Part shown: piece by piece, positions 2,536 to 40,319 of the stretch | Layout of the letters: each line of letters opens with the position of its first letter | How positions within the stretch are numbered: position 1 is the stretch's first letter | Assembly (NCBI GenBank): GCA_963575745.1 | Contig: CAUYUJ010004347.1 | Span: forward strand, 72,001 to 136,000 | DNA from: Prorocentrum cordatum | Lineage: Eukaryota > Sar > Dinophyceae > Prorocentrales > Prorocentraceae | Direction of reading: 5' to 3' | Length of the DNA: 64,000 nt | Made by a program: the position numbers and the translations under genes | The notes under the pieces: generated by a model | Database searches by the model: none | Told to the model about the DNA's origin: nothing | What the model saw: the letters and a program-made list of their open reading frames with translations, nothing else

Positions 2536-2794
2536 CTTCCAAAGCTTAGATTATACCGAGTAGCTTTCTCCACGTAGCTCACACCACGTACGTGAGTGCG
2601 TTAATTCTTCTTTCTGAAAAGGGAATAGACTCTACCCCCCCCCCGGCGTTACCCGCCCCCATTTCGGGTATGTAAATCATATATGGTTATGACCACATGT
2701 CCATCCTAAATATGAATTTGCACTACCCCAGAGGGACCGGGATCGGTCCCCCTGAGGTTCCCTTTAAAAAACGATACGTGGGGACAGATTTCCA
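2536..2794. other. Spacer, no feature seen
   Basis: Moderately AT-richer than its surroundings, with short C and A runs (2635, 2764). The word ctcacaccacgta near 2579 recurs near 13802, which suggests a dispersed repeat fragment. No coding signal. Confidence 0.4.
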
Positions 2795-2935
2795 TACCTA
2801 GGCTCTGCCTAGAAGGGTTCTTACTCTCTGGGCTTAAAGGGGCCGGGCAGTGGAAAGCGCCCCGGGCGGTTCCCCCAGTATCCGCCCCGCGGTTCCCCCA
2901 GCTACGTCCCCTTAGCTTAGCGTTGCTTATCTCAT
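2795..2935 (+). repeat. Conserved 140-bp block, copy 1
   Basis: Nearly identical to 3501-3645: shared words include gggttcttactctctgggct, taaaggggccgggca and gtatccgccccgcggttccc. Each copy leads directly into an AGC-type pentanucleotide array, so block plus array form a higher-order repeat of about 0.7 kb. Confidence 0.85.
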
Positions 2936-3436
2936 CTTAGCTTAGCTCATTTCATATTAGCTTAGCTTAGCTTCATCTTAGTTCAGGTTTATCTTAGCGT
3001 AGCTTACCCTCATCTTAGCTTGGCTGAGCTTTAGCATAGCAGAGCACATCATAGCATAGCATAGCGTAGCACAGCATAGCGCAGCATAGCATATCATAGC
3101 ATAGCCCAGCATAGCATAGCATAGCGCAGCATAGCACAGCATAGCATAGCGCAGCACAGCACAGTATAGCACAGCGCAGCATAGCATAGCATAGCATAGC
3201 ACAGCAGATCATAGCAGAGCATAACGTAGCATAGCATTGCATAGCGCAGCTTAGCATAGCATATCATAGCATAGCATAGCTCAGCATAGCTTAGTATAGC
3301 TTAGCATAGCACAGCGCAGCATGACATAGCATAGCATAGCATAGCATAGCATAGCATAGCGCAGCATAACATAGCATAGCATAGCATAGCGCAGCATAGC
3401 AAAGCATGGCATATAATAGCATAGCATAGCATAGCA
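2936..3436 (+). repeat. TAGCA/TAGCT pentanucleotide satellite, block 1
   Basis: Pentamers atagc, tagct and gcagc run in tandem with few interruptions. Minus-strand Met-Leu-Cys-Tyr-Ala open frames are products of the pentamer, not genes. Confidence 0.9.
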
Positions 3437-3492
3437 ACTAATGCTGTTTTCCGGGGGGCTCCAACTTCTAGGTAGGGTCGCACTGGGGTAAT
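3437..3492 (+). repeat. 56-bp flanking direct repeat, left copy
   Basis: Aligned without gaps to 12573-12628, 48 of 56 positions agree, including ggggctccaact and tagggtcgc. The two copies lie on either side of the tyrosine-recombinase retroelement and may be its terminal or split direct repeats. Confidence 0.65.
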
Positions 3493-3500
3493 GTGTTCCC

Positions 3501-3645
3501 TACCGAGGCTCCGCCTGGAAGGGTTCTTACTCTCTGGGCTTAAAGGGGCCGGGCAATGGAAAGCGCCCTGGGCGGTTCCCCCAGTATCCGCCCCGCGGTT
3601 CCCCCAGTTGCGCCCCCTTAGCTTAGCGTTGCTTATTTTATCCTA
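3501..3645 (+). repeat. Conserved 140-bp block, copy 2
   Basis: Second copy of the block at 2795-2935, with a handful of substitutions (for example gggcaatgg versus gggcagtgg). It again precedes a pentanucleotide array. Confidence 0.85.
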
Positions 3646-4335
3646 GCTTAGCCTAGCTTAACTTAGCTTAGCTTAGCCTAGCCTAGCTTAGCTTAGCTTA
3701 GCTTAGCTTTGCCTATCCTAGCTTAGCTTAGCTCAGCTTAGCTTAGCTCTCAGCTTAGCTTAGCGCAGCGCAGCATTAGCATAGCAGCGCATAGCATAGC
3801 ATATCATAGCATAGCATAGCATAACATAGCATAGCGCAGCATAGCATAGCACAGCATAGTATATCATAACATAGCATTGCATTGCACAGCATAGCATAGC
3901 GCAGCATAGTATATCATAGCATAGCATATCATAGCATAGCGCAGCACCGCACAGCATAGCATAGCCTATCATCGCGCAACATATCATAGCATAACATAGC
4001 ATATCATAGCATAGCATAGCATAGCATAGCATAGCGCAGCATTGCATGTCATTTCATAGCATGACATATCATAAGACAGCGCATTATATCATAGCATAGC
4101 ATAGCATAGCGCAGCATCGTATATCATCGCATAGCATAGCGTATCACCTCATATCATATCATAGCCTAGCGTAACATAGCGCAGTCTAACATACACTAGC
4201 ATCGCATATCATATCATAGCGCAGCATAGCGCAGCGTAGCGCAGCATAGCATAGCATAGCATACCATGGCATACCATAACATAGCATAGCATAGCGCAGC
4301 ATAGCGCAACATAACATAGCATAGGAGTTGGATAA
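3646..4335 (+). repeat. TAGCA/TAGCT pentanucleotide satellite, block 2
   Basis: Same pentamer family as 2936-3436, more degenerate toward its end (atatcatatc, gtatcacctc). It stops just before the first ORF of the DIRS-like element. Confidence 0.9.
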
Positions 4336-5208: not shown

Positions 5209-6979
5209 ATGCCGCCCAAGGGGCGAGCGGGGGCGGCCGCTGGGCCCCGGCGTGGGGCACGTGGGCGCGGTCGCAGGCGCGGCGGACCTGGGCGTGGGGC
5301 TGCGGCAGGTGCTGCTCGAGGGCGAGGTGCTGCCGCTGCTGCCCCCGCACCGAATCGGGCCCCGCGCAGGCGCGTGGCCGCCGCTGCTTCTGGGGGTTCC
5401 GCCCTCTTCGCAGCGGGTGGGCCTGGCTTCGCCCCCCTGCCCGCGGCAGCGGCCGGTGCGGGCGCGGCCGCCGCGGCGGGTGGCCTCCCCTGCGGCGGAG
5501 GCGCGGCGGCGCCAGCAGCGCCCGCGGCTGCGGCACGAAGGCGAGAAGGTGCTGCCGGCCTCAACCCCGCCGCGGTGGCGGCCGCCCAGGCGGGCGGAGG
5601 CACCCCCCAGGAGCTGGCGGCGGGGCTGGCGCAGATGGCCAGGGGCCTCGGCGTGGGCCTCAACCAGCAGCGCATCGCCGCCGCCCTGCAGGCCATGCAG
5701 GCTGGGGCCGCGCCCGCCGCTGGGGCCCCCGCCCAGCTCGGGCTCGGGGCTCAGCTCGCTGGAGCCCTCGCTGCCGCAGGCGCTGGGGGCATGCCAGGTC
5801 CAGCAGGGCTGGGAGCCCCGGTGCTGCCCCAGGGGCTAGCGGGAGCTGCCGCGGCGCAGCCCGCAGTGCCAGGGCCCCAGGCCGCGGGCGGAGCGGCTGC
5901 AGGCGTCGTAGCCGCCGACGGGCCTTGGCTCGGCAAGGGCCTGCAGCCGCGCGTGCTGGCCCAGGCGGCGCTGACGACGGGCGGCATCATCGCGGTGCCG
6001 ACGCACGACGACGCGCTGGAGGTCACCGGCACAGCGCTGCTGAAGCTGGGGACCATCTGGGCTGCGGACGCCCTCGGCGCGTTCGTCACTGCCGTGTTCG
6101 GCGGCGCGTCCACTCCCGTCAGCACGCTGCAGTTCGAGCAGGCGTGGAGTGCCGACGGCGGGGCCCCGCTGGTTCACCTCTACTCGTGCCCACGAGAGGG
6201 ATGCCAAGCGGTGGCGGGCGCGCACTCCGTGAACCACGTCGACGTGCTGCGCGTGAGGGCCCCCCTGCAGCTGAGCGAGGCTTGGGCCCGCCCTGCCGCG
6301 CGCTGCGCCGGCTGGGGATGCTGGCGCGGACCCGCTCAGCGGGGCGAGGTCCAAGGCGGCGCTCGAGGCGAAGGTGGCACAGCTCAAGCCGCGAGGGGCA
6401 CGCCGACCTCTTCAGCGCCGCGGCGAAGAGGGCGCGAGGCGCCGCCGAGCCCAAAATCACTGGCGACGGAGGAGATGCCGAGTCGCTTTTCCACGATGCC
6501 CCCTCCGGCTCCGTGACGAACCGGCTCCAACAGGCGGCGCGCCAACGCCCGGGCGCGCTGCTCGAGTCGGGTCTCTCCGAGATGGCTCGATTCCTGGGCG
6601 AGCGGGACGGGGCGACGACAGGGGGCAGCTCAGCACGAGTGGTGGCCTACCGGAGAACAGCATCTTCTTTGGGCAGCACCCGCAGAGCGGCATGTCGCAG
6701 CACTCAGCGCGCGAGACGAGAACGATCGCCCACGCGATCGAGGGGCTGCTCGAGGGGAAGCTGCCGGAGGTGGGCGACCTGCTCATCCAGCGGCTGAAGG
6801 CCCTCGAGCTGAGCGTCCGCGACAAGGACTGGGCCGTGGCCAGCCAGCTGGAGCTCATGGACGACCAGCCGGGGATCGTGAGCTTGTCGGAGCGCCAGGC
6901 GGCCGCCCAGCACGCGCTGATGCAGGCGCGGCTCGCGGAGGTGCGGAGCAAGGGGCGCCTGGGCGCGAGCCCTGGCTAG
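5209..6979 (+). pseudogene. Gag-like ORF of DIRS-like element, frameshifted
   Basis: The ATG at 5209 follows the ORF1 stop after 3 bp. Residues 1-250 are Arg/Ala/Gly-rich and low in complexity; then a more ordinary globular segment follows (around 5940-6270), containing AVPTHDDALEVTG and a CPREGC motif. Three frame changes are then needed: near 6350 into a frame reading KAALEAKVAQLK, near 6400 into one reading ADLFSAAAKRARG through GLSEMARFLGERDG, and near 6650 into one reading IFFGQHPQSGMSQHS and LIQRLKALELSV, ending at the TAG at 6977. The tail (helical, with GDLLIQRLKALE) resembles the Gag-like region I associate with dinoflagellate retroelements. The interrupted frame argues for a decayed copy, although small assembly errors in GC-rich DNA would look the same. 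Confidence 0.55.
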
Positions 6980-7492: not shown

Positions 7493-9001
7493 CCTCCCAG
7501 CCGCCCTGGCGGCGCCGGCGCCCCCCTTCTGCTGCTGCTGCCGCGAGCTCCGCGGCGCTGCCGACGGCCCTCGGCGCGACTGCCGGGGGGGGCCAGGCCG
7601 CCCTGGCATGCGGGCATTGCCCGCAGGGGGGCCCCTCAGCCGCCGGTGCCGCCGCCTGCGCCGAGGTCCTGCCGTCCGTTCTCGGGCGGCCTGCCGGAGG
7701 GGGATCCGCCTCCGGCTCGCGCCCGCCACGCCTGCAGGTCGCCGCCAAGGAGATCGAGGAGGCCACGCCGCATGACGTGCCGCAGGTGCTGTTGAAGCTG
7801 GCACGGTCGCTGCCCACGAGACCTGGCGAGGCTGCCAGGCGTCTGACACAGGATGGGGGCAGGCCAAGTTCCAGGGCAGAGGGGGGACAACGTGACCTCC
7901 TCCCCCTGCCCTTCGTTGCGCTTCCAGACGCAGAGCTTCGCAGGTTGGGGGCGACCACGTCCCAGCAGGTGAAGGCAGCGAAGCAGTGGGCGCACGTGCT
8001 CATCATCGGCCTCAACCAACTATGCGCCAACTGCTCGGCCGACCCCGAGAGGTGTGTGCAGCGCGGACCTCCCAGTCCAGCACAGCTCAGGAGCCTGCGC
8101 ATGCTGGCTCGGGCAGCTCTACTGTTCATCGCGCGGAGCCCCGAGCCCGTCGGGCGAACCGACTGGGCTAGCGAGCTGGCCAAGGAGCGGGTGGCCAACG
8201 ACGGGGAGGAGGTCGGCACGGCAGAGACGCTCGCGGTCGAGCAGGTGCTGCCCGCTGCGCCGCCCGTCGGCATCGCGGCCTCCGTGGAGGCGGCCCCGCT
8301 CTGCGATCCAGTGGTACGCTGGGCGCTCCTCGACGCCGACTCGATGGTCTTCCCCGAGGGCGTCGGGCCGGCGGTGCCGCCACAGGCCAAGATCTGGATT
8401 TCTAACGAGGTCTGGGAAGAGCTGGTGGAGGTCCTGTGGGCTCGCGGGCTCGTGGAGCCCATCGATCTCAAGGGCGTGCTGCGCGCGGGCGGCAAGCCAG
8501 TGCTGCGCGGGCCCTTTGGCGCGCGGAAGGGGACCGAGCGGACCGTCAAGCGGCGCGACGGCTCCTACGGTCACATCCTGCGCCTCATCATGAACCTCGC
8601 GTCGCCCAGCGTGATGCAGCGCGTGGTCGGCGGGGACATGGACCAGCTGCCCCTCTCGAGCCAGTTGTCGACTCTCACGCTGCTGTCGCGCGAGATTATG
8701 CCGTGGACCTCCTCGGACCGGCAGTGCTTCTTCTACGCGTTCAGGTTGCCGCCGTGCTGGGGGAGGCTCATGGTTTTCAGGGCTCCCGCGCCTGGCCGCC
8801 TGGTGGGCAGGCCGGACAAGGCTTGGGTGCACGTGGCCAGCGCCACGGCGGCGATGGGCTGGATCTCAGCCACAGGAGCGTCGCAGCACATGCATCGCAA
8901 CGCGCTCGAGGTAGGGCGCCCACGCGCTGCGGGACTCGAGCCTGAGGCAGAGTGGCGCAGAGACCGCAGGGAGCCCGCTCACGCCTCGCAGCTCGGACAC
9001 C
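7490..9001 (+). pseudogene. Reverse transcriptase (fingers and palm) of DIRS-like element
   Basis: This is part of a 602-codon open frame (7363-9171). An N-terminal helical region (about 7740-8240) precedes the polymerase core. Recognisable are a fingers segment with RLIMNLASPSVMQ (8581-8620), a motif A equivalent at about 8705-8745 reading SSDRQCFFYAFRLP, and a motif B-like segment at about 8830-8915 with AAMGWISATGASQHMHR, where related dinoflagellate proteins have a Met-Gly-Phe/Trp and Gln-His-x-His-Arg signature. The frame then drifts into Arg-rich nonsense after about 8920, and motif C is found in the next frame at 9008-9028 (WEVCVDN). The enzyme would copy element RNA into DNA; the split between motifs B and C needs a frameshift, so this copy is probably inactive. 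Confidence 0.65.
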
Positions 9002-10696
9002 ATGGCGTGGGAGGTCTGCGTCGACAACCTGGAGATCCAGGAGCTGATCGACCGGGTGGACGCCGAGGCGCTCCGCGGGAGCGTCAGCCCTCTGCTCGAG
9101 CTCGCGAGGGCGGCCTACGAGGCCCACGGCGCACCTGGCGTGGCGGCCAAGGACGTGCTCCGCCAACCTGAGACGCAGGCCCTCGGGGACAGGATCGACG
9201 GCGACCTGGGCCGCAAGGAGCCGCCCAAGGGCTACGCGAGCCAGCTCATCTCGCTCACCCTGTGGGTTCCGGCCCAGCGCGGCACCTGCAGGAAGCACTG
9301 GCAGATCGCGCTGGGGCGCTGGGTGCGCGCGTTCGCCCACCGCCGTGGCGGGGTGGCCGCCTTCGAGCACGTGTGGAGGTGGATCTCCGGGTCCTCCCGC
9401 GGGCGGGTTCTCCCGCTGCCAGTGGTCGACGAGCTCCTGCACGCGATGTCGTTCGCGCCGCTCTACTTCACCGGCTTCCGGCTGAGCATCTGGCCTGAGG
9501 TCACTTGCTCCGACGCCAGCCCGTTCGGAGGCGGCGTGGTGGTGAGTCGTGGCCTCACGCCTGCAGGGGGAGCGGCCCTGGCCCGCAGCGGCCGGCTGCC
9601 CTGGCAGCGCAGTGAAGACGAACTGGTCATCATCAGCCTCTTCGACGGGATCGCAGGTGGCCGCTGCGCTTGGGCTGCCCTGGGGCTCGACTGCTTCTGG
9701 CACATCTCGCCCGAGATCGACCAGGCGGCGACGCGCGTGGCAAGGAACGTGTCCCCAGACTTCAAGGAGCTCGGGGACGCCAGGCTCGCCACCAGGGAGG
9801 TCCTCGTCACCGTCCGCAATGGGTGCGCAAGGGGCCGCAAGCTCCTGCTCATGGGGGGCTTCCCGTGCCAGGGCTTGTCGCGCCGCAACGTGGACAGGAA
9901 TGGCCTCTCGGATCCTCGCAGTGCCTTGGTCGGCGAGATCGTGCGCGTCCTGGACATCGTCGAGGTGGAGTTCAGCGAGTGGGAGGTTGAGTTCCTTTTC
10001 GAGAACGTGGACTCCGCCGACGGGGCCGACGTCGCGGCGGTCACGAAGCTGCTGGGCCGCAAGCCCTACAGGGTCTGCGCCTCTCAGGTATGCCACGTGC
10101 GCCGCCCGCGGCTGCACTGGTGCTCATTCTGCTTCGTGGGGGGCGCCGAGCACAGCATCGAGGAGAGAGACCTCTGGCGCCAGGTGGAGCTCGACGCGGA
10201 CCCTGGGCACTACTCGCGCTGGCTGCGGCGAGGTGCCCCTTGGCCTGCTGGAGACGGCCCCGCAGCAAGGCTCCCCACCGCCGTGGGGAGGGAGCGGCGC
10301 TCGTCTCCTCGCCCGCGGCCCGCGGGCTTCTCTCAGTGCGATCCAGCAGCGCTGCAGCGCTGGGCGGACGACGGGTTCGCCCTCCCGCCGTATCAGTACA
10401 TCGAGAAGCACTGCATGTACGAGAGAGGGGAGTGGCGGCCCCCCTGTGCTGAGGAGCGGGAGGTGCTCATGGGCTTCCCGCGCGGCCGCGCTCAGGTCGC
10501 AGTCCCGTCAGGCGTGCTGAGAGACGACCCGCAGCACGCAGAGTCGGTCCGCTGCAGCCTCCTCGGGAATGCCTTTCACGTGGAGGTCGTGGCGTGGCTG
10601 CTGGGGCACCTCGCCGTCAAGTGGAAGTTCTTGGCGAGTGCTCCCTCGGTCGGCCTCCTCAGGGTGTCGGCCCGCCCGGTGGCCGCTAGCGGCTAG
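9002..10696 (+). CDS. Fused ORF: RT motif C and thumb, RNase H N-part, C5-cytosine DNA methyltransferase
   Basis: A 564-codon frame without stops. Residues 3-9 are WEVCVDN, the RT motif C equivalent (xVDN rather than YVDD). Residues 80-120 look like an RT thumb/connection (SLTLWV, LGRWVRAF). SDAS at residues 170-173 (D171) followed by FGGG is the first RNase H strand with its catalytic Asp. A full C5 methyltransferase follows: motif I SLFDGIAGG (about 211-219), motif IV GGFPCQGLS with catalytic Cys289, motif VI ENV (334-336), motif VIII RPRLHW (about 368-373), motif IX-like VLMGFP (about 488) and motif X LLGNAFHVEVVAWLL (about 520-534). Motifs I and VIII resemble DNMT3-type enzymes while PCQ is more DNMT1-like. 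All key residues seem present, so transfer of methyl from S-adenosylmethionine to cytosine C5 is plausible. The ATG at 9002 is not a natural start; upstream sequence belongs to the same polyprotein. Confidence 0.85.
   Translation: MAWEVCVDNLEIQELIDRVDAEALRGSVSPLLELARAAYEAHGAPGVAAKDVLRQPETQALGDRIDGDLGRKEPPKGYASQLISLTLWVPAQRGTCRKHWQIALGRWVRAFAHRRGGVAAFEHVWRWISGSSRGRVLPLPVVDELLHAMSFAPLYFTGFRLSIWPEVTCSDASPFGGGVVVSRGLTPAGGAALARSGRLPWQRSEDELVIISLFDGIAGGRCAWAALGLDCFWHISPEIDQAATRVARNVSPDFKELGDARLATREVLVTVRNGCARGRKLLLMGGFPCQGLSRRNVDRNGLSDPRSALVGEIVRVLDIVEVEFSEWEVEFLFENVDSADGADVAAVTKLLGRKPYRVCASQVCHVRRPRLHWCSFCFVGGAEHSIEERDLWRQVELDADPGHYSRWLRRGAPWPAGDGPAARLPTAVGRERRSSPRPRPAGFSQCDPAALQRWADDGFALPPYQYIEKHCMYERGEWRPPCAEEREVLMGFPRGRAQVAVPSGVLRDDPQHAESVRCSLLGNAFHVEVVAWLLGHLAVKWKFLASAPSVGLLRVSARPVAASG
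9622..10650 (+). other. C5-cytosine methyltransferase domain nested in RNase H
   Basis: Domain limits inferred from motif I (9634-9660) and motif X (about 10557-10602). It lies between the first RNase H catalytic Asp (codon 9512) and the RNase H Glu in NELEMGA (about 10900-10920). Target-recognition sequence would sit between motifs VIII and IX (about 10120-10450), which is Arg/Pro-rich here. Confidence 0.85.
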
Positions 10697-10709
10697 CGCA
10701 TTTTGCAGC

Positions 10710-11155
10710 TCGCGCGGCTTCGCTCGGGAGCAAGCCCTTGTGCTGGACGTGATGAGGGCGACGTCCACGAAGGGCTCCGACGTGAGGATCTCGACAGGGG
10801 AGCTCTTCTCACCGTCGGGATGGCCCCGACTGCCAATCCCCGCCAACTTGTGGCGCTGGTCCGTGGTCTTGCAGTTCAGCTGGCAGCAGACGGCCAACAT
10901 CAACGAGCTGGAGATGGGGGCGTACGTGTCGGCTCTCCGTTGGCGTCTGCGAGCAGAGAAGAACTTGCAGACGAAGTTCCTTCACCTGTTGGACAGCCAG
11001 GTGTCTATCGCTGTCCTCACCAAGCACAGATCGGGGTCTCGCCAGTTGAATCGCATTGCTCGCAAGGTCAGCGCACTTGAGCTGGCCTCAGGGGTCATGG
11101 CCATCTTGGGCTTCTGCCGCAGTGGTGACAACCCTGCGGACGCGCCCAGCAGGAA
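10710..11155 (+). pseudogene. RNase H C-terminal part of DIRS-like element
   Basis: In a frame shifted from the methyltransferase ORF the sequence reads RISTGELF, LWRWSVVLQFSW, then INELEMGAYVSALRWR, LHLLDSQVSIAVLTK and GDNPADAPSR. The Glu of NELE, the Asp of DSQ and the Asp of DNPADAPSR fit the second, third and fourth catalytic acids of retroelement RNase H; the first is D171 of the preceding ORF. RNase H would remove RNA from the RNA/DNA hybrid. The frame switch (stop at 10696, this frame open from about 10570) means that either a programmed shift, an intron or a mutation separates the halves. Confidence 0.7.
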
Positions 11156-11159
11156 GTGC

Positions 11160-11388
11160 GCGCGCCATGGTCAGACGCCTGCGCGCACAGGCAGATCGTG
11201 CGAGCAGAGCCGCAGCCAGGAGGACGCTGGGGCCTTTGCGACTTCAACGTGTGGCACCCCCGGCACGAATTCGGTATTTTCGTGCTGCATCCATGTTTGT
11301 CCAGTATCAGCTGGACCAGGGCTGGCCGCAGGCCGTCGACGCCGCCGACATGGACCAGCAGATCTGCACGTTCATTGAACATCTCTAG
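11160..11388 (+). pseudogene. Tyrosine recombinase N-terminal (core-binding-like) segment
   Basis: A frame ending at the TAG at 11386 reads IRYFRAASMFVQYQLDQ and AADMDQQICTFIEHL. Its helical composition and its place immediately before the catalytic domain fit the SAM-like DNA-binding domain of tyrosine recombinases. It is out of frame with both neighbours, so it is part of a broken reading frame. Confidence 0.5.
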
Positions 11389-11444
11389 ATTGACGGCGAG
11401 GGTCGCAATCTGGCAGGAGATACGTTGAGTGGTATTCAGTTTGC

Positions 11445-12116
11445 TTGGGCCGACGGCGTGTTTTCCCTATGTCCTGGGATCTTTGGCGGACATGGGGAAG
11501 GATCGAGATGCCGCAAAGAGCACCGCCCATGTCCGTCACCATGCTGTGCGGCATCGCCCATGTGCTGTGGCAGCTCGGGCGGCAAGATGCAGCGGTGCTC
11601 ATCCCGGTCGCCTTCCATTGCTTGCTGCGGACGGGCGAGCTCATGTCCATCCGCGCCGAGCACGTGCTGATCAATGCGAGCCACACAGGCCTCGTCGCCC
11701 TGCCTTGGACCAAGAGCGGGGCCAGGAGAGGCGCGCAGGAGCTGGTCGCCGTCGACGACCCAGTCGTGGGCCGTGCACTGGCGTGGCTCCGCCAGCGGCA
11801 GGGCGCGGGGCCGCTGCTGCTGGGCGCAGGCGCGCAGTTCCGCCTGCTGTTCGAGCGGGCGTGCGTCCAGGCTGGGCTCAGTGAGGTTGGCCTCAAGCCC
11901 TACAGCCTGCGCCGTGGCGGTGCGACGCGCGACATGTGCACCCGCGGCGACCTGGGCCGCGCCGTGCACCGCGGCCGCTGGTCCGACCCGCGCGCGGCGC
12001 AGATCTACATCAACGACGGGCTGGCGGCGCTGGCGCAACAACGAGTGCCAGACGCCGCCGCCCGAGACCTGGCTGCGCGAGCTGCCGCTCTCGCGCGGCT
12101 GCTCGCGTCCCTGTGA
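11445..12116 (+). CDS. Tyrosine recombinase catalytic domain of DIRS-like element
   Basis: A 223-codon frame (first ATG 11451-region in an unlikely context; the true protein starts upstream). Arg62 in LLRTGEL is the first catalytic Arg, Lys90 in WTKSG fits the beta-hairpin Lys, YSLRRGGAT at 153-161 is the HxxR box with Tyr153 in place of His and Arg156 as second Arg, Trp179 in GRW takes the His/Trp position, and Tyr188 in AQIYI is the nucleophile. The enzyme would integrate circular element cDNA by site-specific strand exchange through a 3'-phosphotyrosine. The catalytic set is complete, so the domain itself looks intact; length (about 180 residues after Arg62 to the end) is normal. The stop is at 12114. 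Confidence 0.8.
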   Translation: MGRRRVFPMSWDLWRTWGRIEMPQRAPPMSVTMLCGIAHVLWQLGRQDAAVLIPVAFHCLLRTGELMSIRAEHVLINASHTGLVALPWTKSGARRGAQELVAVDDPVVGRALAWLRQRQGAGPLLLGAGAQFRLLFERACVQAGLSEVGLKPYSLRRGGATRDMCTRGDLGRAVHRGRWSDPRAAQIYINDGLAALAQQRVPDAAARDLAARAAALARLLASL

Positions 12117-12572
12117 AACAGGGACGCCTCCCCTCATGTTCTCACCTGCTCCTCCCCTCCTTGCCTCTAAGAAGCCTCTCCTGCCACTGGTGGCGGCCGG
12201 TCCCCCTTGAAGGGTGGCCGAGCGTTCCCGGGGGGGGTCGGGGTTGTTCGCCTTCGGCCGCCCACGCCGCCCTCCCTTCTGCAGTCGAGGTTCTTAGCGG
12301 GGGGGGGTTCTCGGAGTAGTTTTAATTTTTAAGAGTTCGGCACACCAAATGGGGAAGACGTGGAAGGGTCCCCCCCTCGAACCCCCCCGTCGGACTCGCG
12401 AGACGCCCTCGCGGACCGGGGGCCCCGTGGGCCCCCGTTGGACCAGGGTCTGAGCCTTCGGGCGAGCCACTTGGACCGGGGGCGTTTCTTGGGGGGCGCG
12501 GGCCCATGGGCCCGTGGGTGCGATTTCCTTTGGCCTGCCTCCAAAAAAGCGCGCCTCCCCCGGGGAACGACT
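12117..12572. other. Probable 3' untranslated part of the DIRS-like element
   Basis: Contains G/C homopolymer runs (12229, 12300, 12370) and no coding signal I recognise. It lies between the recombinase stop and the right 56-bp repeat. Confidence 0.4.
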
Positions 12573-12628
12573 ACTAATATTGCTTTCCTGGGGGCTCCAA
12601 CTCCTAGATAGGGTCGCTCTGGGATAAT
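12573..12628 (+). repeat. 56-bp flanking direct repeat, right copy
   Basis: Partner of 3437-3492 (48/56 identical, same orientation, no gaps needed). It follows the recombinase ORF by about 450 bp. Confidence 0.65.
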
Positions 12629-12639
12629 TCTAACATAAC

Positions 12640-13117
12640 ACTTTTTCGCGAATCCCTTGCGACAAAAAACGGAACGAAGTGCAAGCGCGCGCGTCGTCGC
12701 GCGCGCATGCCGAAGTCCTTCAACAACCTTCGGTGCCGGAAGGATTTCGCAATCGAGTTCCCATAAACAACATACAAAACACAGGGTTTCGCAACATTGA
12801 TTTGCTAAAACAGCTTCCGCGCGAGCTCTTGCGAAATCTTAAGAAAACCATAGGTGTTTCAAGATTTTCACAAACTTCTATCAAACGGGTTTCGCGCGCG
12901 CATGTCGAAATCTTTCGAACGCCCTTGCGCGTGTGCCGTCGCGAGAATCCACTGCAAAAAACGGAACGAAGTGCAAACTCGCGCGTCGTCGCGCGCGTAT
13001 GCCGAAAACCTTCAAGGCCCATCGGTTTCGGAAGGATTTCCAAATTGTGTGTCCAAACAACATACAAAAACACGACGTTTCGCAACACGGATTTTCAACA
13101 AAAGCGTGCGCGCGTGC
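12640..13117 (+). repeat. About 294-bp tandem duplication
   Basis: The block beginning aaaaaacggaacgaagtgca (12664) recurs at 12956, with shared downstream words such as ggaaggattt, aacaacatacaaaa and cacgcgcg-like tracts. The second unit is cut short by the trinucleotide array. It is rich in gcgcgcg words and encodes nothing recognised. Confidence 0.75.
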
Positions 13118-13640
13118 TCTTGTGTCGTCGTCGTCGTCGTTGCCGTCCTCCCTCCTCCCGCGTCGTCGTCGTCGTCGTCGCCTCCGTCGTCCTCTGTTTT
13201 TCCTCGTGTTCGTCGTCGTCGTCCGCTTTGGCGTCGTGGTCGTTTCCGTCGTCGTTGTCGCCGTGGTCGTCCTTCCTCCTCCTTCCTGGTCGTCGTCGTC
13301 GTCCGTCGTCGTCGTCTCGTCGTCGTCCCTTCTATTTCGTCGCCCCGTCGTCATCGTCGTCGTCGTTGTCGTCGTCGTCTTCCCTCCTCCCTCGTCGTTG
13401 TCGTCGTCGGCGTCGCCGTCCTTCCTCCTTCTTCGTCGTTCGCGTCGTCGCCGTCCTCCCTCCTCCCTCGTCGTTGTCGTCATTGTCGTCGTTGTCGCCG
13501 TCGTCGTCCTCCCTCCTCCCTCGTCGTCGTCTTCGTTGGCGACGTCGTCGGCGTATTCGTCTTCGTCGGCGTCGACGTCGTCGTCGTCTTCGTCGTCGTC
13601 GACGTCGGCGTCGTCGTCGTCGCCGCCGTCGTCGGCGACA
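13118..13640 (+). repeat. Imperfect GTC/CGT trinucleotide array
   Basis: Dominated by gtcgtc with cctccctcc interruptions at a spacing of about 60-130 bp. All six frames are open for long distances (Ser, Val, Arg, Asp, Thr-rich products), which is an artefact of the triplet. Confidence 0.9.
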
Positions 13641-36670: not shown

Positions 36671-38808
36671 GTACCGTCTTCGGTGGATCTCCCTATGGGG
36701 CCACGAACCGTTTGAGGGGTGTGCCGAAATGGGTGTGGGGGCGGCATGCGAACGTTGCCACTGGGGCCTTCGGTGGAGCTCCTTATGGGGCCACGAAACG
36801 TGTGAGGGGTGCACCGAAGTTGGTGTGGGGGCGGCATGCGAACGCAGCCACTGGGGCCTTCGGTGGAGCTCCCTGTGGGGCCACGAAACGTGTGAGGGGT
36901 GTGCCGAAATTGGTGTGGGGGCGGCATGCGAACGCAGCCACTGGGGCCTTCGGTGGAGCTCCCTATGGTGCCACGAAACGTGTGAGGGGTGTGCCGAAAT
37001 GGGTGTGGGGGCGCATGCGAACCCAGTCACTGGGGCCTTCAGTGGAAATCCCCATGGGGCCACGAAACGTGTGAGGGGTGTGCCGAATGGGTGGTGGGGA
37101 GGCATGCGAACCAGGCCACTGGGGCCTTCGGTGGAGCTCCCTATGGGGCCACGAAACGTGTGAGGGGTGCCGAAATGGGTGGTGGGGAGGCATGCGAACT
37201 GGGGCCTTCGGTGGAGCTCCCTATGGGGCCACGAAACGTGTGAGGGCCGGGGTGGTGGGAGGGCATGCGGACCCTGCCACTGGGGCCAGCTCCCTATGGG
37301 GCCACGAACGTGTGAGGGGTGTGCCGAAATCATTAGCTCCCTATGGGGCCACGAAACGTGTGAGGGGTGTGCCGAAATGGGTGGTGGGGAGGCATGCGGA
37401 CCCTGCCACTGGGGCCTTCGGTGGAGCTCCCTATGGGGCCACGAAACGTGTGAGGGGTGTGCCGAAATGGGTGGTGGGGAGGCATGCGGACCCTGCCACT
37501 GGGGCCTTCGGTGGAGCTCCCTATGGGGCCACGAAACGTGTGAGGGGTGTGCCGAAATGGGTGGTGGGGAGGCATGCGGACCCTGCCACTGGGGCCTTCG
37601 GTGGAGCTCCCTATGGGGCCACGAAACGTGTGAGGGGTGTGCCGAAATGGGTGGTGGGGAGGCATGCGGACCCTGCCACTGGGGCCTTCGGTGGAGCTCC
37701 CTATGGGGCCACGAAACGTGTGAGGGGTGTGCCGAAATGGGTGGTGGGGAGGCATGCGAACCCTGCCACTGGGGCCTTCGGTGGAGCTCCCTATGGGGCC
37801 ACGAAGCGTGTGAGGGGTGTGCCGAAATGGGTGGTGGGGAGGCATGCGGACCCTGCCACTGGGGCCTTCGGTGGAGCTCCCTATGGGGCCACGAAACGTG
37901 TGAGGGGTGTGCCGAAATGAGTGGTGGGGAGGCATGCGGACCCTGCCACTGGGGCCTTCGGTGGAGCTCCCTATGGGGCCACGAAACGTGTGAGGGGTGT
38001 GCCGAAATGGGTGGTGGGGAGGCATGCGAACCCTGCCACTGGGGCCTTCGGTGGAGCTCCCTATGGGGCCACGAAACGTGTGAGGGGTGTGCCGAAATGG
38101 GTGGTGGGGAGGCATGCGAACGCAGCCACTGGGGCCTTCGGTGGAGCTCCCTATGGGGCCACGAAGCGTGTGAGGGGTGTGCCGAAATGGGTGGTGGGGA
38201 GGCATGCGGACCAGCCACTGGGGCCTTCGGTGGAGCTCCCTATGGGGCCACGAAACGTGTGAGGGGTGTGCCGAAATGGGTGGTGGGGAGGCATGCGGAC
38301 CCTGCCACTGGGGCCTTCGGTGGAGCTCCCTATGGGGCCACGAAACGTGTGAGGGGTGTGCCGAAATGGGTGGTGGGGAGGCATGCGGACCCTGCCACTG
38401 GGGCCTTCGGTGGAGCTCCCTATGGGGCCACGAAACGTGTGAGGGGTGTGCCGAAATGGGTGGTGGGGAGGCATGCGGACCCTGCCACTGGGGCCTTCGG
38501 TGGAGCTCCCTATGGGGCCACGAAACGTGTGAGGGGTGTGCCGAAATTGGTGGGTGGGGATGCATGCGAACCCTGCCACTGGGGCCTTCGGTGGAGCTCC
38601 CTATGGGGCCACGAAACGTGTGAGGGGTGTGCCGAAATGGGTGGTGGGGAGGCATGCGGACCCTGCCACTGGGGCCTTCGGTGGAGCTCCCTATGGGGCC
38701 ACGAAACGTGTGAGGGGTGTGCCGAAATGGGTGGGGAGGCATGCGGACCCTGCCACTGGGGCCTTCGGTGGAGCTCCCTATGGGGCCACGAAACGTGTGA
38801 GGGGTGTG
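36671..38808 (+). repeat. 90-bp satellite array, about 24 units
   Basis: The unit includes ccactggggccttcggtgga, gctccctatggggccacgaa and acgtgtgaggggtgtgccga. Period is exactly 90 bp from about 37330 to 38180, with shortened units near 37157-37330, at 38213 and at 38730. Early units (36671-37080) differ (gtgtgggggcggcatgcgaa) from the uniform later ones, the pattern of expansion at one end. As 90 is a multiple of three and no frame-specific stop occurs in the unit, four frames are open on both strands; the longest (638 and 584 codons) run into the GAT array. No known protein is encoded. Confidence 0.95.

Positions 38809-40319
<1,511 letters not shown>

Follow-up and report, generated by a model that had tools for sequence, protein, structure and literature searches.

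Retrotransposons that carry a DNA methyltransferase pose a puzzle, as a parasite then encodes the enzyme usually used to silence it. The locus analysed here raises this question in a particular form: does a C5-cytosine methyltransferase (MTase) lie inside the ribonuclease H (RNase H) of such an element, as an earlier note on this DNA had proposed, and what might it do there? The window, by which we mean the whole stretch of 64,000 nucleotides that was analysed, comprises positions 72,001-136,000 of contig CAUYUJ010004347.1 from the 4.13 Gb genome of Prorocentrum cordatum. Our answer, which we consider probable, is that the MTase was inserted in the hairpin between RNase H strands 2 and 3, is kept by selection, and likely methylates the element's own cDNA. 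To our knowledge it is unusual for a complete enzyme to be folded inside another while both remain conserved. The parts of the element in the window are as follows.

5917..6967, + strand: remnant of a gag-like region in three frames (tblastn with the L033 upstream ORF)
7681..8985, + strand: reverse transcriptase (RT) part of Pol, frame 1 (62% identical to L033 Pol in a 437-aa alignment)
9455..9598, + strand: RNase H first part (RNaseH-1), strands 1 and 2, with the first catalytic Asp at codon 9512 (profile match, E 2.5e-18; L004 model)
about 9620..10650, + strand: DNMT3-type C5-cytosine MTase nested in RNase H (Cys codon 9866, Glu 10001, RPR 10103)
10710..11171, + strand: linker containing GSDVR (10773-10787), followed by RNase H second part (RNaseH-2), strand 3 to the C-terminus (Glu 10911, Asp 10992, Asp 11139)
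11083..12116, + strand: tyrosine recombinase region that overlaps Pol at its end and changes frame once, near 11440 (identity to the L033 ORF; PF00589 below cut-off)
12141..12573, + strand: 3′ non-coding stretch of the element (88.5% identical to L037 along 435 nt)

Compared with the L033 open frames, RNaseH-1 and the MTase match at 8972-10678 of the window and RNaseH-2 at 10710-11156. The gag-like pieces (5917-6291, 6447-6659 and 6656-6967) are 52-67% identical to the L033 upstream ORF by tblastn, and the recombinase pieces (11083-11442 and 11439-12041) are 59-61% identical to the L033 recombinase ORF. The RT, RNaseH-1 with the MTase, RNaseH-2 and the two recombinase pieces lie in changing frames, with most of the RT in another frame than the MTase. 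Because these frame changes split gag, Pol and the recombinase, the window copy is a dead, decayed element. Its likeness to L037, the nearest copy read, stops at 12573; A-B-A-B or terminal repeats sought around the copy were not found, and a tRNA scan gave none.

The window element is a DIRS-like retrotransposon that resembles SymbioDIRS-Dnmt3. Split repeats in the order A-coding-B-A-B are complete in locus L041 (A1 930-1016, B1 8284-8522, A2 8525-8611, B2 8661-8897), and in L033, L034 and L035 a match to A2 of 37-40 nt lies at the start of the stretch. B1/B2 pairs, 84-99.6% alike, occur in 11 of 15 loci (L032-L036, L038, L039, L041, L043-L045) and are absent from L031, L037, L040 and L042, three of which are partly masked. 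In 8 of the 15 loci the two B repeats match at 97-99.6%, so some copies inserted recently. Open frames of 1498-1669 aa holding the RT motif YIDN, SDAS and the MTase motifs are likewise present in 8 of the 15, and several loci have a downstream ORF of 286-372 aa with the motifs RRGGAT and HRGRW..Y, which we take to be tyrosine recombinase-like. Pfam Phage_integrase (PF00589) reaches the window at E 0.019, below the cut-off, and gave no match in the L033 recombinase ORF, while a PDB sequence search with the recombinase retrieved no recombinase; the RT reaches Pfam only below the cut-off or not at all. One relative, P0001, is named Tyr recombinase domain protein in UniRef. The RT catalytic motif, located in 77 of 95 related Pol proteins (18 not located), is YxDN-like rather than YxDD in 75 of them, and reads CVDN at about 9017 in the window.

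The MTase motifs reported by the earlier note are present in the frame 8915-10693, namely FDGI, PCQ (Cys 9866), ENV (10001) and RPRLHW (10103). The window MTase matches Pfam DNA_methylase at E 2.5e-9, above the family cut-off, and its best PDB sequence match is DNMT3A (E 9.6e-9). Among C5 methyltransferases, the DNMT3 family is the closest to the nested enzyme both by PDB sequence and by fold, which bears out the suggestion that it is DNMT3-like; DNMT chains fill one set of fold matches, so that no RNase H appears among the matches listed there. Its suspected departure from DNMT3 at motif IV is also real. The window reads PCQ, and PCN, presumably the DNMT3 form and also visible in the PDB DNMT3A alignment row, is absent; motif IV has Q in 80 and V in 36 of the 131 full-coverage rows of our conservation set, which were retained from 147 matched rows (16 dropped for partial coverage) and comprise 114 proteins and 17 genome copies.

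On either side of the MTase lie the motifs that had been assigned to RNase H: SDAS, with its D codon at 9512, ahead of it, and NELEM, DSQ and NPADAPSR after it in the frame 10521-11375. The RNase H acids run in the order D-E-D-D (D 9512, then E 10911, D 10992 and D 11139), with the MTase between the first and the second. Profiles of the two RNase H parts, built from relatives with the window copy left out and applied at a cut-off of E <= 1e-3, each gave a single match in the window, at 9455-9598 (E 2.5e-18) and at 10815-11171 (E 5.7e-46). No RNase H family of Pfam was matched by the nested region or by the relatives tested, and the RNaseH-2 profile retrieved no RNase H chain from PDB sequences; the RNase H assignment rests on conserved motifs and predicted structure, not on sequence-family matches. 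In the AlphaFold model of the nested region, made for the homologue L004 (pLDDT 90.6, pTM 0.89), strands 1-2 come before the MTase and strand 3 onward after it, which places the MTase between RNase H strands 2 and 3; the first-part strands are model residues 22-26 and 30-39. The proposed split between the first and second acids, with the two enzymes folding as a nested pair, is thus supported by sequence and predicted structure, and the flanking acids fit RNase H in their conservation, spacing and fold. By these models an RNase H fold with its D-E-D-D acids is present, and cleavage of RNA in an RNA-DNA hybrid is its putative activity. Between the MTase and strand 3 lies the motif GSDVR (window 10773-10787), where G442 is invariant and D444 is kept in at least 90% of the alignment; AlphaFold confidence is low here despite the strong conservation.

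The nested order recurs in other copies and in relatives, the same order being found in a single open frame. Searching the P. cordatum genome with 9503-10693 gave at least 105 matches (104 scored of 2632 first-look candidates). One open frame with SDAS, PCQ, ENV, RPR..W, NELE or NVLE, DS and NP.DAPSR was found in 9 of 30 loci (L003-L009, L023 and L030); the frame of L017 reaches only NPAD, in L019 the last D is replaced by G, and the remaining loci are without one or more motifs or the frame, several being frameshifted or masked. A protein search returned 166 relatives from genomes and metagenomes, 120 of them listed, and among those listed are proteins named Skav that are nested likewise. Within the 131 rows, which favour nested proteins and show conservation rather than frequency because they were retrieved by nested-region searches and required to cover that region (many being related copies), the four acids of RNase H are present in 130 (D1), 130 (E), 130 (D3) and 127 (D4), and the catalytic Cys, the ENV Glu and the second Arg of RPR of the MTase in 125, 129 and 129. 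Spacing in RNaseH-2 is nearly fixed, at 27 from E to D in 130 of 131 rows and at 49 from D to D in 128 of 131, and the distance from D1 to E across the insert is 371-596 residues (median 475, 131 rows). No intact RNase H lies elsewhere in the other copies, each half occurring once in 14 of 15 loci of ~10 kb. L037 has its second half in two pieces around a stop, and the partly masked L040 has the first half only.

An uninterrupted RNase H was found neither among the 32 new proteins from an RT-only search (34 proteins in all) nor in the 18 of 72 genome places that were read in part. In 21 of the 32, the MTase motif-VIII pattern lies 150-240 residues after SDAS. The other 11 (P0121, P0124, P0127, P0131, P0134, P0135, P0142, P0145, P0146, P0151 and P0152) were judged by motif alone: several stop in or before the MTase, P0134 stops before SDAS, P0127 bears an annotated DNMT, and in P0124 an MTase motif is accompanied by no clear SDAS at the right distance. 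The motif H-I-N/T-x-x-E within 90 residues of an SDAS-like motif is absent from P0001-P0152 except P0104, where it occurs by chance in the linker of a protein that is itself nested. In a genome search with RNaseH-2 only, 150 of the 7439 first-look candidates were scored; 78 of these places share a contig with an MTase match and 72 do not. Seven of the 18 places read hold the PC, ENV and RPR motifs (L046, L047, L050, L051, L053, L056 and L058); L054 has RPR, with GNV replacing ENV, together with DUF4326; L064 and L067 have an MTase in broken frames and L057 a frameshifted MTase end; L052 is masked, and L065 and L066 are short, with no SDAS within ~100 residues. L055 has lost its first RNase H part to an internal deletion. 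No relative read shows an RNase H without the insert, even in the lineage whose insert seems dead, probably because clean loss would need precise excision from an essential domain.

What fills the RNase H varies among lineages. In one P. cordatum lineage (L017 and L023), DUF4326 (PF14216, E 1.2e-12 and 1.8e-16) separates the MTase from RNaseH-2. The same domain was recognised by motif in L054 and L055, a matching long MTase-RNaseH-2 distance of 225-238 residues is seen in 10 of the 17 genome-copy rows, and a precomputed DUF4326 domain is present in P0009, P0122, P0124, P0125, P0126 and P0129. DUF4326 has been proposed to process ADP-ribose derivatives in viruses (in a passage of PMC9503650). 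A second lineage has a dead insert (L048, L049 and L059), without PC, ENV and RPR, and retains SDAS together with RNaseH-2; L060-L062 are upstream stretches of this lineage, and L063 is joined to it by linker likeness. The open frames of L048, L049, L059 and L063 are 1600, 1820, 770 and 427 aa, and the three dead-insert copies are 96-98% alike in protein (424/441, 433/441 and 425/442). The RT motif of the dead-insert lineage is YCDD (L060, L062), not YxDN.

Between L033 and L036, dN/dS is 0.089 in the RT, 0.052 in RNaseH-1, 0.090 in the MTase and 0.049 in RNaseH-2, and L033 gives similar results against L035 and L009 (MTase 0.09-0.10). Pairs with L038 are less clear, with 0.30-0.48 in the MTase, and L038/L030 gives 0.72 in the RT and 0.80 in RNaseH-1; L044/L045 gives 2.7 in the RT and 2.6 in the MTase, on few changes. 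The low values of the L033 pairs support the maintenance of both enzymes by selection where the frames are open. Across 95 proteins, pairwise distances correlate at r 0.925 between MTase and RT and at r 0.879 between MTase and RNaseH-2; the MTase, RT and RNase H have been inherited together, with no sign of swapping. The elements show no CpG depletion of the kind that self-methylation might leave, the observed/expected ratio being 0.93-0.97 in 8 loci and 0.97 in the window copy. Between copies there is a modest surplus of CpG transitions, which varies among the 6 pairs compared (ratio 1.05-2.14). Both sets of figures count against a strong self-methylation footprint.

The nested MTase likely serves to methylate the element's own new cDNA, and the order of the polypeptide suggests how it might proceed. 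The chain would start RNase H, make the MTase, and then finish RNase H, an order supported by sequence and models. Nesting of this kind would hold the MTase at a 1:1 ratio by the site where RNA is removed from new cDNA. The CG sites of the cDNA would then be methylated as the second strand forms, before insertion by the tyrosine recombinase, and the methylated copy would resemble host DNA if the host is heavily CG-methylated, as passages of PMC5890265 report for Symbiodinium. According to the same passages, the DNMTs of SymbioDIRS-Dnmt3 methylate CG de novo in yeast; however, Symbiodinium elements without a DNMT expand as much as DNMT carriers, which counts against the explanation (PMC5890265). 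Because nesting would tie the MTase to the step freeing cDNA from RNA, cDNA self-methylation becomes a specific, testable idea, for which the dead-insert lineage is a possible natural control.

It could be argued instead that the MTase is extended at its N-terminus by the SDAS segment, that RNase H is the second part only or is degenerate, and that the enzymes stand side by side. That Pfam and the PDB sequence search leave the RNase H unrecognised would fit such an arrangement, as would the length of the first part, only ~48 residues, and the weak Foldseek E-values of the second part, 0.096 at best. However, the second part predicted alone matches the RNase H fold without strand 3, which forms only in the model holding the first part, and a fold search with it gave only RNase H chains among the matches listed. 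The alignment with RNase H1 begins at residue 28 in the best rows listed, and that with HIV RT at 459-460 in most rows (earlier in two, 6dpg at 61 and 4b3o at 404). The first catalytic Asp of HIV RNase H is D443. These starts (28 and 459-460) fall after the first catalytic Asp and thus count against SDAS lying outside RNase H. With D1 conserved in 130 of 131 rows along with E, D and D, and no other RNase H start found within the 15 loci of ~10 kb, we regard a side-by-side order as highly improbable.

Alternatively, the MTase might act on host DNA or RNA, either blunting silencing or driving genome-wide CG methylation, with its place in RNase H a tolerated accident. Symbiodinium DNA carries heavy CG methylation, and parts of PMC5890265 discuss how element DNMTs may influence the methylome of the host; the lack of CpG depletion in the elements studied here points the same way. 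We nonetheless think a host target unlikely, given that MTase, RT and RNase H distances run together with no sign of swapping, and that in those parts of PMC5890265 the authors favour cDNA methylation on the basis of the place of the DNMT in Pol. A further option is that the insert is now mainly structural, as a spacer or a nucleic-acid grip on RNase H, and that methylation is dispensable. It draws on the 3 of 18 sampled places (L048, L049 and L059) that have a motif-less insert and keep the RNase H motifs, L063 being similar in its linker. Against this stand the MTase catalytic residues kept in 125-129 of 131 rows and the low dN/dS in L033/L036, and the dead-insert copies themselves show dN/dS of 0.52-0.82 in the insert (few changes), 0 synonymous versus 1-5 non-synonymous changes in RNaseH-2, and an internal RT deletion in L061; a mainly structural insert is in our judgement decidedly unlikely.

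Beyond cDNA self-methylation by the nested MTase, we tentatively raise the possibility that the strand 2-3 hairpin is a socket for whole enzymes (the DNMT3-type MTase and, in one lineage, also DUF4326), in which RNA removal and cDNA methylation would be physically coupled. The dead-insert lineages suggest that a filled socket is not easily emptied.

Insertions into RNase H-like folds and methylases in DIRS elements are each known in other forms. The hAT-type transposases have an insertion domain within an RNase H-like fold, which is mostly helical, at another place, and not known to be a second enzyme. In classical DIRS elements, as the earlier note states, an adenine-type methylase-like domain is located after RNase H, and this methylase is structurally unrelated to the C5-cytosine enzyme. 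The DIRS order and the presence of a (Dam-like) methylase in the polyprotein are alike in the two, by the partial accounts in PMC5890265 and PMC6338049. Passages on SymbioDIRS-Dnmt3 (de Mendoza et al., 2018; PMC5890265) describe the same A-coding-B-A-B repeats, a DNMT3-type enzyme in Pol with the RT, and a separate tyrosine recombinase ORF. The alignments of the Skav proteins, taken as S. kawagutii, cover 98-99% of the nested region for P0077, P0095, P0111 and P0119, and 90% of it for P0120. KnitGypsy-Dnmt3 of Klebsormidium nitens likewise has a DNMT3-type enzyme in a retrotransposon Pol but is described as a Gypsy element and an independent capture (in sections of PMC5890265). For SymbioDIRS-Dnmt3, those sections give two domain orders in Pol and make no mention of a split RNase H, with RNase_H among the domains listed in a figure legend (PMC5890265). 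No literature text describing an MTase inside RNase H was found, and a prior drawing in the figures or supplements of PMC5890265 is possible. The present loci extend SymbioDIRS-Dnmt3 by copies from P. cordatum, by the DUF4326 passenger and by a lineage with a dead insert. The element kind has been known since 2018; what we offer as new within that kind is the nested topology, together with the second passenger and the dead-insert lineage.

Other repeats lie around the window copy. A 56-nt stretch occurs twice in the window, at 3437-3492 and 12573-12628, with 86% identity; its second copy starts where likeness to another element copy stops, and it could be a genomic repeat that served as target. 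Simple repeats of ATAGC and CGTCGTC types lie near both sides of the element (window 2790-4320 and 13115-13640), and a long tandem array with a period of ~90 bases occupies window 36678-38809.
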